DNA of 64,000 nucleotides. Origin: Arbacia lixula. Taxonomy: Eukaryota; Echinodermata; Echinoidea; Arbacioida; Arbaciidae. How positions within the stretch are numbered: the stretch's first letter is position 1; every line of letters starts with the position of its first letter. Below, piece after piece: positions 20,910-27,012 of the stretch. The stretch is taken from NCBI GenBank assembly GCA_963669155.1, contig OZ022577.1, positions 26,567,865 through 26,631,864 of the forward strand. The letters are read 5' to 3'. Under the pieces are notes generated by a model. It was given only the letters and a program-made list of their open reading frames with translations, was not told where the DNA came from and searched no databases. The position numbers and the translations under genes are program-made.

Positions 20910-23900
20910 ATGGCGAACCTGAAGCAGCTGGAGTATGATGCGAGTGAGGACTTCCCAAACTTCCATGGCCACCACAGCCTGCTGGCCAAGTACTGCACTG
21001 ACGAGGTCTACAAGAAGCTGCGAGATGTGCACACGCCGTCAGGCTACACACTCGACAGGGCAATCCAAAATGGCGTCGATAATGCAGGTAATAATTATTT
21101 GGGGTAAGGTCGACTTCTTCTATGACAGTCGCCCCAAATGGGGAAATATATGGGTTATGGATAATAGTTATACATGATATGGTTAGCGCTTAGGACTGGG
21201 GTTACTGAACCCCCATAAAAAGAATCAGTAATCATGTTTTTCGTCACAGCATTACGATACACAACAATAACAAATATGATGAATACATAATATACTGTAT
21301 TCCATGAACAAGATAGAATAGAAATCAAAAAGGAAAATAGCCGAGATTTTTTATTAGTTGGACATGTATCCCTGTATAGAGAGAGACAAACTTACCGTGC
21401 CGTACTTTAATTGTTTCTTCCATTTCATGTTTTAATTTCTTATGAAATGAAGATAAAGATCCTTCCAAACATTTAGTTGAAAATATATATCATTTAGCAT
21501 ACAAAACAACTGCAGAACAGTCCTAGCTAAGTAAGTTCGCATTCTGAATATTGACTGAAGCAAAAGCAAAAAGAAAAAAAAACTGCGCCAATAGGCCAAT
21601 CACAGTCACGAATCGTAGGGGACTTAAGTTGAGACTTCAAGTAAAAATAGTTTAGAATACCAACCAGGCCATACCCAATCTGTATGTTGGTGTAATCTGC
21701 TTATTCAAGCATTGTATTCTTGATATTTTTCTGCGGTCAGATTTCCACGTTGGCATCCTTGCGGGTGATGAGGAGTGCTACACGGTCTTCGCCGATCTCT
21801 TCGACAAGGTCATCGAGGAATACCACAACGGATTCAAAACCTCAGGTGAGTTTGGAAGAGAACTGGAGAATGGAGAGGGAAGTACACTGGAACTAATCAC
21901 AAAAAACACAGCAGAAATAATTGGCAAGAAATGGTCGCATGTGTCGCTAGATAGTGTCGCTAGATAACGGCGCTCAGTAGGAGAAGGAGAAGGAGATGGA
22001 GAAAGAGCAGGAGGAGGAGGAGGAGTAGGAGGAGAAGGAGGAGGAGGAGGAGGAGGAGGGGGAGGAGGAGGAGGGGGAGGAGGAGGAGGGGGAGGAGGAG
22101 GAGGGGGAGGAGGAGGAAAGGGAAGGGGAAGAGGGAGGGAGAGGGGGAGGGGGAGGGGGAAGTAGAAGGGGATGGAAAGGGCGAGGGGGAAGGGGAGGGG
22201 AGGGGGAGGAGAAGAAGAAGAAGAAGAAGCCTCCATTTACCATCCCATCTGAGGGACGGGGTGTTTTCCCACAAGCCGCTGCTCTCCTTATGGAAAGCTG
22301 TCATTCCATACGTCATTGCTCAGTGCCACTCTCATCTTGCAGATAACCACAAGACGGACCTCGACCATACGAAGCTGACGGGCGGGCCGTTGGATGATGC
22401 CTACGTGGTGAGTTCCCGAATCAGGACTGGGCGGAACATCCGAGGCTTCGCGCTCTCTCCGCACATTGCTCGTAGCGAACGGAGACAAGTCGAAAAGCTC
22501 GTGTCTGAAGGTATATCATTTCTGAATTCTCTATATCGCATGTAGGGGAAGGTCGTCCCGGAATGCACCGCGCATTGACATCCAGATTTTGTTTGCAGTC
22601 ATGGCCGCTTCCAGTCTCTTACACTAGACCGAAAGCAGAGACATGACTGCAAACAAAATTTGTTTATTGGCTGTCTTTTCTTTATATTGTATAATTTTAT
22701 AATTGGAAAGTGGTTATTGATTATGATATTTCATTTAATCATAAAATTGTACATCCCATAGAAAACTACTTCATACGTTATACAGAACCTACAAAGTGTG
22801 ACGTCATGAAATAATGAGGGTAGAGCAGACAGCAGTGATAATAATGGCAGGGACTCTCATTGGGAGTGCCCGAAACTCTCACTTAGGTGATGTTGCTTAG
22901 AACCCAAAACCTGCTACTTCGGTACACTATATAATCATCTATCATTATTGTTAGCTTTTAACATATTCCGCTTTCCTTTGTCCAGCTCTGTGTTCGCTGG
23001 ATGGCGAGTTTGCGGGGAAGTACTACTCCCTCCTCACCATGAGCCCCGAGGACCAGCAGCAACTCATCGATGACCACTTCCTGTTTGAGAAGCCCATCTC
23101 ACGTCACTTCCTGAGCGGCGGCATGGCCAGGGACTTCCCCGATGGGCGTGGCATCTGGTATGTGTCACCCCACCTCTTGGTTCCTATTAGGGCGGCGGTC
23201 TTCATGTTTCTAAAGGCCCCCTCAGACGACACGAACTAGTACGAACTCGTACGACACGACTCGTACGACTCAGCGACTGGCTAAATTACAGGACGCGGTC
23301 ATTAGATTTCTATAAGAAAGTGACATCACAGTTCCAGGCGGTTGCCATTTCGACTGAATGGGAAATTCGTGTCGTCTGTGTTGTCCTTAAGAAATACTAC
23401 CCAAAATTATCCGTTAAGATCTTTTCCCGCGCCCTTTGTGAATATTATCTGCTTCCTTCCCTCAAACATAATTATCGAGTGTAGGAGTAGAGTCTTGAGC
23501 AGTGTCTTCATTTCAAAGTTTCAAAGAATGACAAAAGTGAGGTCCCGCCCTTTAAGCTAGACAGAAGTGTGACTCTGCAAACTATTTTTATTTTACTTCA
23601 TTAGTAGTAGTGAAATGGGGATTAATAAATTGAATTTACGATGAACTTTACGTGTTGGGGGCTCAACAGCGATTGACATTGAAATATAGAGTTTATTTTC
23701 TTTCTTTCTTTCTTAAATTAGAACCACATATTTATCTCGAATTTGCAATATTTTTCTACCTGTTTTCATTGAATGTTTTTTTTCACACCTCCCAACATAC
23801 AGTTGCAAAAGAAAGCGTACGAAAATAAGGTTTATTAATGGAGATATCGCAGTTATGCTGCCTGCTGCCTGGCTGTTTAGGTGATTTAACCCTCTCAGTA

Positions 23901-26725
23901 CCGAGCCGGGAAAACCCATTGGCTGATTCCTCATTTCGGGCACCTATGGGACTGGGAAGGTTGAACGTTGCGTTGTACTTTTGTCATATTGTACCCACTT
24001 TGCAGGCATAATGACGACAAGACGTTTCTGGTCTGGATCAACGAGGAGGACCAGACCCGCATCATCTCAATGCAGAAGGGCGGGGACATGAGGGCAGTCT
24101 TCGAACGCTTCTGCGCCGGACTGAACCGGGTAAGTTCTGATAACGGCAACTGCCACCTTAACACCGAACATCTTTGGTTATTAACTCTTACCGCGCCATT
24201 TATATATTTTTACACAAGTGACACCCATCAACACCATGGGGTAGCCATTCATTTAACCCTATTCTGACTAGGGGGAGAGGGGGAGGGGTGTCATTTTTAC
24301 TCCCCCCCCCCCCATTCGAAATCCACGACTGACGCACAACTGCTGCCCTTCATGACAAGCTATTTAATGATTTTTTTCTTTTCAAGTTTTTTACAACTTT
24401 TGAGACCAAGTTTGAACAAATCGAACCTTCCGTTCAGAGGCTACGCAGCATTATGTAATAGCATGTCGGATGTCCAAAATCTGACCAAAAAGTGAGATTT
24501 CGCATAGATTTATGTACAACATACTGCTTTCCCTATACTGCTCAATATCACTATCAATTGTGCCTTCTAGGCTTTCTGCTACATCACATTGTCCTACACA
24601 TTTATCAAAATACATATCGGACATAAAAAAGGCATAAAATGAGAGAAAAAAATTGATTGGTAATTTAAAAAACAAATTGACACGATATTATTGATGCTAC
24701 TCGGCTTATCATACAATAGTTTGACCGTCATGTCATTTGTTTTTCAATGAAATACGTGTATTACTAAATTGGCAAGATATGCATCCTATATTTGCATAAA
24801 TTGTGATTTACACGAATGGAATACTTTTCCCGAAAAAAAAAACTTATGCAGCAGCGCTCTTTACATGATCTCCGTGTAAAAGTTTGCGTCGATACAATCT
24901 TCCGTGGCCGAGTATTTTTGCAGTAAAAACCTGCTCTCAAAAAGCCCAGTCAGAATCACGCAAAGGGTTCATGCGGCTATTATTTTTATCGATGTTCACC
25001 GACGCATTCAATTCGTTATCTTCCGCCGCTTATTGCGTGGGAAAAGATGAGCTCCCTGGATCTTATTTTTCTCACTGAAGAAAAATGATACATTTTTAAC
25101 GTCTACCCGAATTAGATAGAAAAAAAAAAATAGTATGTGTTAAATCGATCGATTTGGGAAGTAAGACCCTGCGTCCATACCGAAAACCGTCAATTATCCG
25201 CTCCTCTTCTTTCCGGAAGCGGACGTGACTGTAAACAAAAGCTGTCTGTGGTTGCGCGGTGCATCATGGGACGCCTTTTCCTTCTATGCGGTATGGAGAA
25301 GTGAAAATGTGCTATATGAAACTTCTTCTTCTTCTCGTTAGGTGGAGGAGAAGATCAAGGAGCAGGGGAAGGAGTTCATGTGGAACGAGCACCTTGGCTT
25401 CATCTTGACCTGCCCGACCAACCTGGGCACGGGCGTGCGATGCAGCGTGCACGTCCGCATCCCCAACCTGGCCAAGGACGCGCGCTGCAAGTCTATCATG
25501 GCGGCCCTTCGGCTCCAGATGCGCGGCACTAGTAAGTGATCACATTCTTCATCTCGTACGTGTTGCATGTTTACCCCCGTTAATATCTTCCTGCTTATTG
25601 ATTGGTTGAAGTGCGTCACATGACCACGACGAGTTTGCGAGAAAGACTGTGAAAGGGGGCGGGGGAGAGTCTAGGACAGTCAGAGGGTTTATGGCCTAGT
25701 CTGTGTTACCAGACATAGTTGTTTACAGACTCGGTTGCGTCCATGCAGTCCGCAGCCTAGTAAAAAGATTAAAAATAGGCTAAGGGATATTCCCTCTGAC
25801 GTCAGCGAGTATTTGACGCAGTGATTGGGGCTTATTTCACCTTCGCACCATAACAATAAAAACATTGATATGATTAATATATTAATGAAAGTTATGAAAC
25901 AAGTATTATGGTCGAATTACTTGTGGAATCCATTAGTCCTCTCGATGACCTGGAGGCATGGGCAAATTGTACATTAACACGTAAGGGGCCATGATTTTGT
26001 CACTTTCGTTAATTATTTTTTGTTTTGCTCTTAATGTTTAGGTGGCGAGTTCACGGAGGGTGTGGGAGGGGTCTATGACATCTCCAACCTCGACCGCCTG
26101 GGGAGCTCTGAGGTCCAACAGGTGCAGTGCGTCATCGATGGCGTCACCACCATTATCAACATGGAGAAGGCGCTGGAGAAGGGCGACTCCATTGATGACC
26201 TCGTTCCTGGGTAGGTGACGGTGGTCATTGAACTAGAACATAGTGGCGCCATCGGTTCCATTGCTGTGGCGGTTGAATCATTTCAGTGAGATGTTCACGA
26301 TTTCCTATGATTTCCTATGTCGGGTTGGTGTGCGAGTTTTCGGTATCAAAGCGACCCGACATTGTGTAGAAGTTGTCTTGACATTGAACACATGTGACGT
26401 CATATGACGGAAATAAAAGCTCAATCTACGGGGAAGCGTGGATCCATATGCAATATATTTAATACTTGCGCAAGGAGCACAATCTACCGTGAAATGAGTA
26501 CATTACTTTTTTATCTATTCTTGGCTCTACAGAAATGCGGCTCAGATCCAGGAGGAGCAGAAGAAGGCAGAGGAGCAAACCGCAGCAGGACAGCAGACAG
26601 CCGAGCCGAAGAGCGCCAGCTCCGCCCCCGGCGCCAGCTCCGGCACCGCCGCCCCGACCGGCTCGGAGGCCAGCGGCTCTCAAGAGAAGTCCAAGAAAAA
26701 ATCTTCGACATGCTCGGTTTTGTAG
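20910..26725 (+). CDS. Phosphagen kinase of creatine kinase lineage with a CaaX-terminated tail
   Basis: Catalyses reversible phosphoryl transfer between ATP and a guanidino compound. Eight exons: 20910-21087, 21741-21845, 22343-22510, 22986-23157, 24006-24129, 25342-25531, 26042-26210 and 26533-26725, giving 432 residues. Family motifs in order: [17 protein letters not shown]; the ATP-site [26 protein letters not shown]; the NEED box WINEEDQTR; reactive Cys273 in [30 protein letters not shown]; and [11 protein letters not shown]. The overall match is creatine kinase, but the specificity loop ([15 protein letters not shown]) is 4 residues shorter than in CK, like arginine kinase. Val320, in the second specificity loop, is CK-like. 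The substrate is therefore unsettled (creatine or arginine). CK normally ends near residue 369; here exon 8 adds 63 residues rich in Gln, Ala, Ser and Pro, ending [12 protein letters not shown]. This is a polybasic stretch plus a CaaX box (X = Leu, the geranylgeranyl type), so membrane attachment is inferred. The upstream acceptor at 20768-20769 suggests a non-coding first exon. Confidence 0.93.
21965..22232 (+). repeat. GGA/GAA polypurine tract in kinase intron 2
   Basis: About 270 bases almost purely purine on the + strand, mostly GGA triplets. The long Pro/Ser/Leu ORFs on the opposite strand are artefacts. The tract ends about 110 bases before exon 3. Confidence 0.9.
22554..22612 (-). repeat. 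Dispersed 59-bp repeat, copy 1 (kinase intron 3)
   Basis: The reverse complement (GGAAGCGGCCATGACTGCAA to GCATTCCGGGACG) matches 25215-25273 in intron 5. Copy 1 also forms a local hairpin with 22642-22663 (CATGACTGCAAACAAAATTT). Most likely a small MITE. Confidence 0.65.
23221..23275 (+). repeat. Short (ACTCGTACGA)n cluster in kinase intron 4
   Basis: Overlapping repeats of ACTCGTACGA and CGACACGACT make an imperfect palindrome about 65 bases after exon 4. The motif recalls the ACTCG-rich stretch at 41.64-41.95 kb. Confidence 0.6.
25215..25273 (+). repeat. Dispersed 59-bp repeat, copy 2 (kinase intron 5)
   Basis: Inverted relative to the copy at 22554-22612. The pair could fold in the pre-mRNA across exons 4 and 5. 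Confidence 0.65.
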
Positions 26726-27012
26726 AACACTCAGCAGGTTAGCTCATAATGAGACATCCATTAATATAACAATGAAAAGTAATGCGTGATGGCACGCACT
26801 GTACCGATTAATCATACCGAAACTATTAGAAAATATTCTTTAGACCTACTTGTTTGGGCGGCGATTTGGTTTGATTGATGATGGAAATCTGGCGTGCTAT
26901 CTTATGTACAACTACCACACACATCTAACCTATTGAGTAATTAAAGCTATACAGGTGATTAAGAACAAATTCATAGCGAAAGAGGCATCGTGTCATACTA
27001 ATTTGTCCTTTA

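Follow-up and report, generated by a model that had tools for sequence, protein, structure and literature searches.

The window (the whole 64,000-nucleotide stretch of DNA that was analysed) carries on its + strand, at positions 20910-26725, a predicted complete gene of eight exons and seven GT-AG introns that would encode 432 residues followed by a stop codon. The features of this gene, which we assign below to the arginine kinases (AKs), are given here with the evidence used to place them.

20910-21087, + strand: exon 1, with the start and without Gly at position 2 (in-frame join and spliced alignment)
21741-21845, + strand: exon 2; exons 1 and 2 encode a short guanidino-specificity loop of AK type (in-frame join and alignment)
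22343-22510, + strand: exon 3 (in-frame join and spliced alignment)
22986-23157, + strand: exon 4 (in-frame join and spliced alignment)
24006-24129, + strand: exon 5 (in-frame join and core alignment)
25342-25531, + strand: exon 6, including the conserved Cys (in-frame join and core alignment)
26042-26210, + strand: exon 7, the final exon of the catalytic core, GEFTE...IDDLVP (join and both alignments)
26208-26216, + strand: intron-7 donor, TGG^GTAGGT, with an in-frame TAG (26212-26214) inside GTAG
26211-26532, + strand: intron 7, 322 bases, with a single AATAAA at 26412
26533-26725, + strand: exon 8, a predicted 63-residue tail and stop (join, copy-number search, and codon and splice-site scoring)
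26687-26701, + strand: polybasic run KSKKK (read from the sequence)
26711-26725, + strand: CaaX end Cys-Ser-Val-Leu and stop codon TAG (read from the sequence)

The spliced alignment recovered identical exons 1-7, with the end of the query at 26208. Because the query consisted of residues 1-368 of the predicted product itself, this agreement is a consistency check rather than independent evidence. The 63 residues contributed by exon 8 follow directly after ...IDDLVPG. The product has no N-myristoylation signal, as position 2 is not Gly.

Two further features of the window were recorded. Intron 2 includes a long, purine-rich GGA/GAG repeat (21990-22230). On the - strand, an exon-like frame at 36326-36763 matches the RNA polymerase III subunit Rpc34 (PF05158, E = 2.6e-22), which indicates a POLR3F-type gene on the opposite strand, some 10 kb downstream of the AK gene. 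This frame was the sole match among the five of ten long open reading frames that were scanned.

With the N-terminal (PF02807, 100.1 bits) and C-terminal (PF00217, 251.4 bits) Pfam domains both above cut-off, the predicted product is a member of the ATP:guanido phosphotransferase (phosphagen kinase) family. The sequence-only reading had proposed this family, and to that extent it is borne out. However, a creatine kinase reading of the gene is ruled out by the short specificity loop, the active-site Glu, and the identities of the core, and the type is corrected here to AK. The loop is without the four-residue insertion that all five creatine kinase rows in our alignment carry and matches that of PDB 3ju5 gap for gap, while the Glu of the RGTSGE segment is present, as in the other AK rows and as is not the case in the five creatine kinase rows. 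Identity of the core is 73.6% to 3ju5 (over 368 residues), 68.5% to a second gene of this genome (L009), and 60.0% to the muscle-type creatine kinase CK-M (8ci4). The LTCP Cys and the NEED segment are both retained, with a single His-to-Gln change that is also found in a 4rf6 domain. We take 3ju5 and 3ju6 to represent a sea-cucumber enzyme (the database lists it as 'Arginine kinase'). Along with the same short loop and Glu, the 3ju5 chain has 370 residues and no tail, finishing where exon 7 of the window gene finishes.

The alignment and tree comprised ten rows; two loci without gene models (L011 and L013) were left out, and their loops are of the creatine kinase type. This tree places the window gene together with L009 and 3ju5 at a support of only 87/86, which is under the tool's star, and the order within this trio is unsettled. 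The five creatine kinase rows group at 99/98, and all eight rows are set apart from the 4rf6 AK domains at 100/100. The window gene is best read as an AK of the creatine-kinase-derived echinoderm type, for which the use of arginine is predicted.

A PF00217 search, whose count of phosphagen kinase loci is a lower bound, found two AK-type loci in the genome, the window gene and L009, and only the former has a tail. L009 (C2:27.96 Mb) has six core introns at places matching those of the window gene but, unlike it, ends tail-less in ...SIDDLIPK-stop. The five loci examined besides the window gene, L009 among them, end in IPK, IPKP, MPK, LPQ, and SEATE. Four of these stop one or two residues past the conserved Pro, and the remaining one (SEATE), a three-domain creatine kinase, has a different tail. 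When forward frames were scanned up to a few kilobases downstream of the loci examined, the window gene was the sole match to a polybasic CaaX end (at least three K/R before the Cys).

Other observations concern these genes and the genome as a whole. In the three-domain gene (L010, 2543-6115; C1:43.49 Mb), a single uninterrupted frame of 1190 codons encodes all three creatine kinase domains, an arrangement like that of the flagellar creatine kinase of sea urchins. A simple MG-start scan for an upstream first exon with a myristoylation start gave one open reading frame at this locus, which we judged unconvincing. L011 and L012 (C1:47.76 and 47.78 Mb), both creatine kinase genes, are neighbors separated by about 16 kb, and some of their intron places differ from those of the AK genes. 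The mitochondrial contig, read with the echinoderm code, carries ND1, ND2, COX1, ND4L, COX2, ATP6, COX3, ND3, ND4, ND5, and CYTB on one strand and ND6 on the other (COX1 was named by Pfam, and the rest were assigned from translations). With ND1 and ND2 on the same strand as COX1, this is the order of sea urchins and sea cucumbers, whereas sea stars have an inversion. The genome also contains a strong bindin match (E = 2.2e-65); bindin is characteristic of sea urchins without being confined to them. On these two grounds a sea-star origin was rejected, and the host is an echinoderm, most probably a sea urchin. Neither HCN channel exons nor a comparison of COX1 with solved structures served to tell the classes apart.

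The proposal that a separate last exon, joined in frame through a GT-AG intron, adds 63 residues had already been made in the sequence-only reading, and it agrees with the eight-exon model as well as with the codon and acceptor scores. Using a synonymous-codon reference of 2236 codons from phosphagen kinase genes of this genome (window exons 1-7, L009, L012, and L010), exon 8 scores +8.0 bits in the claimed frame, whereas its two remaining forward frames give -13.3 and -24.6 and the best reverse frame gives +4.2. Nucleotide shuffles of the exon average -12.7 +/- 6.0, and none of 5000 reach +8.0. A cruder whole-codon score, which mixes amino-acid composition into codon choice, gives +28.1 and +25.0 for two reverse frames versus -11.9 for the claimed frame, although the latter is still the top forward frame and its score is reached by only 10 of 5000 shuffles. 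Because reverse frames win by this second measure, the codon evidence for exon 8 is good rather than overwhelming.

The acceptor at 26533 scores 5.5, the highest of the 39 AGs in 26281-26726. This value is equalled or beaten by 4.7% of the 3636 AGs in the window, and 10 of 18 comparison acceptors are higher. The donor at 26211 scores poorly, at 3.5, and 17 of the 18 comparison donors (range 3.1-12.1) exceed it. Among the 36 GTs in 26042-26532 it ranks fourth; across the window, 11.5% of the 3679 GTs match or exceed it. Searches of the 607-Mb assembly for exon 8, at the DNA and the protein level, found no second copy (the DNA search skips simple repeats), and a retrocopy that might have served as proof of splicing was thus not available. 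A search of bacterial genome contigs for host contamination yielded 123 pattern matches, none of which are related to the exon-7 peptide. The result is a predicted gene structure with a coding-like exon 8 frame, from which we infer splicing in vivo.

The tail is low in complexity, with 12 Ala, 12 Ser, 7 Gln, 7 Glu, and 7 Lys among its 63 residues. Its very end is a Cys-a-a-Leu sequence (CSVL) preceded by KSKKK, both of which are present just as the initial reading had described them. Given the residue composition, a C-terminal C-x-[VILM]-[LF] has a chance of 4.6e-4, and its joint chance with at least four K/R in the preceding ten residues is about 9e-6, two figures that were computed post hoc with the motif already known. 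A permissive CaaX form has a chance of 3.8e-3. CSVL is given as the C20-prenylated end of RAB18 in a passage that names no enzyme, and so the use of GGTase-I is not proven by it (PMC7674641). Ends of the form CaaL/I/M are placed in the GGTase-I class in another paper, where CSVL itself is absent (PMC11152559). An ICMT-family gene is represented in the genome by two matches on C16. Because this family also matches 5 of 14 control genomes, it is not eukaryote-specific. The CSVL end of the predicted product fits the C-terminal feature of CaaX (GGTase-I) substrates, making this a putative prenylation site.

A precedent for such a site is announced by Chouno et al. 2015 (cited in PMC6429109), whose title speaks of a prenylation signal in AK from a feather star, Tropiometra afra macrodiscus. 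This title supersedes the earlier statement that no phosphagen kinase with a C-terminal prenyl tether was known. The prenylation reading as a whole is therefore upheld in its exon, frame, polybasic run, CaaX end, and listed C20 end, but not in its novelty, and the membrane attachment and ciliary placement that it suggested are conjectural. The phrase 'prenylation signal' occurs in no further paper among the matches listed, and neither a sea-urchin case nor a stop-overlapping donor was found among the matches listed in the literature searched, which covers few subscription journals.

A stop codon lies within the donor at the junction between exons 7 and 8. Exon 7 ends in CCT GG and the intron begins with GTAG, and consequently RNA left unspliced would read ...IDDLVPG-stop and encode 369 residues, with an end that coincides with that of the 370-residue 3ju5 chain. 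In spliced RNA, the stop is replaced by the tail. Because the donor overlaps this in-frame TAG, retention of intron 7 could yield a soluble enzyme of ordinary length. In L009, L012, and L013, the stop codon likewise overlaps a GT (AAG TAA or CAG TAA), and these genes have no known tail. The overlap alone hence proves nothing, and its presence in tail-less paralogues suggests a possible route by which such a donor might arise. An intronic poly(A) signal was also considered and dropped, since an AATAAA is also present in 568 of 5000 shuffles, which puts the one at 26412 at chance level.

There are three other ways in which these observations might be explained. Perhaps exon 8 is foreign to the gene, such that the AK stops at the TAG after exon 7 and the frame at 26533-26725 is a G+C-rich accident. 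The weak donor, the stop positioned immediately after exon 7, and the preference of the whole-codon test for reverse frames speak for such an accident. However, an accident is hard to reconcile with a frame-specific synonymous bias that no shuffle reaches, or with the best of 39 acceptors being in the right phase, and we regard it as very improbable. Alternatively, exon 8 might be coding while its CSVL end goes unprenylated, with the tail serving as a disordered linker or a binding segment. Low complexity is in keeping with this role, and CaaX motifs do arise by chance, as the figure for the permissive form illustrates. A polybasic run adjoining a canonical CaaL end is much rarer by the after-the-fact joint estimate, and the precedent announced for a crinoid AK (title cited in PMC6429109) also argues against an unprenylated tail. 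We consider this explanation improbable, though less so than an accidental frame.

The third explanation concerns how often exon 8 is used, which might be rarely, because the unspliced RNA already encodes a complete, ordinary enzyme. Most transcripts would then keep or end in intron 7 and give the 369-residue soluble enzyme, leaving the prenylated form as a minor or tissue-restricted product of a regulated switch like that of human OAS1 p42/p46. A TAG within the donor, a retained form that ends where the 3ju5 chain ends, and the weakness of the donor all point in this direction, as does the OAS1 precedent, in which the prenylated p46 is attributed to a splice-site SNP (PMC8357416). Counting against it are the chance-level AATAAA of intron 7 and the presence of stop-overlapping GTs in three paralogues that have no known tail. 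On balance, an optional exon 8 seems to us a possibility of some substance but still a doubtful one.

The explanation we favor, and consider probable, is that the window gene encodes a creatine-kinase-derived echinoderm AK to which exon 8 adds a flexible linker, a short polybasic stretch, and a CaaX end, and that the enzyme is putatively geranylgeranylated and membrane-bound. It is favored by the gene model and its frame, the synonymous codons, the acceptor, the AK-type core, the single-copy tail, and the paralogue scan. Set against it are a donor below 17 of 18 comparison donors, the lack of a tail in 3ju5, its closest relative of solved structure, and the whole-codon score. Under the proposed mechanism, GGTase-I would most likely join a C20 lipid to the Cys of the tail, after which the last three residues would be cut off and the Cys methylated. 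The prenylated AK would then bind an acidic-lipid-rich membrane on its cytosolic side, where it might regenerate ATP from phosphoarginine near local ATP consumers. The enzyme is presumably a dimer, as we take echinoderm AKs to be, and would thus present two tails. By retention of intron 7, the gene could also yield a soluble form of ordinary length, and it is reasonable to speculate that the two products constitute a soluble/membrane isoform switch.

Several known systems resemble parts of this proposal. The window gene looks like a relative of the feather-star case, to which a possible splice switch would be a new feature. Both are echinoderm AKs with a prenylation signal, announced in one case and predicted in the other, but Tropiometra belongs to the Crinoidea and the window gene to another class, and the two tails are only possibly homologous. 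What is added here is a predicted prenylation signal in a second class, its location on an exon of its own, its presence in only one of the two AK-type genes found, and a donor that overlaps an in-frame TAG. The flagellar creatine kinase of sea urchins, described in one passage as N-myristoylated (PMC13024116), is a lipid-anchored phosphagen kinase, as is proposed for the window AK, and this genome has a three-domain creatine kinase (L010). However, that enzyme has creatine-type loops and an N-terminal acyl anchor, whereas the window AK has a C-terminal prenyl signal. In Trypanosoma brucei, an N-terminal extension sends an AK to the flagellum (PMC4517888, PMC3679164). Placement by a terminal extension is shared, but there the signal is N-terminal and is once compared with acylated calflagins, with no CaaX mentioned in the passages concerned. 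Two unrelated enzymes, OAS1 p46 (made by a splice isoform; PMC8357416) and Arabidopsis PGL2 (with a CSIL end; PMC9478949), are described as soluble enzymes placed on membranes via a C-terminal CaaX, like the placement proposed here.

Together with the feather-star report, these findings permit a broader and tentative speculation, which is that one splice choice, at a donor lying over an ancestral stop, yields AK in one of two forms, soluble or geranylgeranylated and membrane-bound, and that a prenyl-anchored phosphagen kinase might have existed in the crinoid/sea-urchin ancestor beside a separate N-myristoylated flagellar creatine kinase. If the tail works, then one animal group would have two independent lipid anchors on ATP-regenerating kinases, creatine kinase being myristoylated in sperm flagella and AK prenylated elsewhere. 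Sea urchins, with their good egg, embryo, and cilia tools, would in that case be a place to test the role of a membrane-bound phosphagen kinase. Furthermore, the stop-overlapping donor suggests a way in which an anchor may be added to an enzyme while its soluble form is kept.
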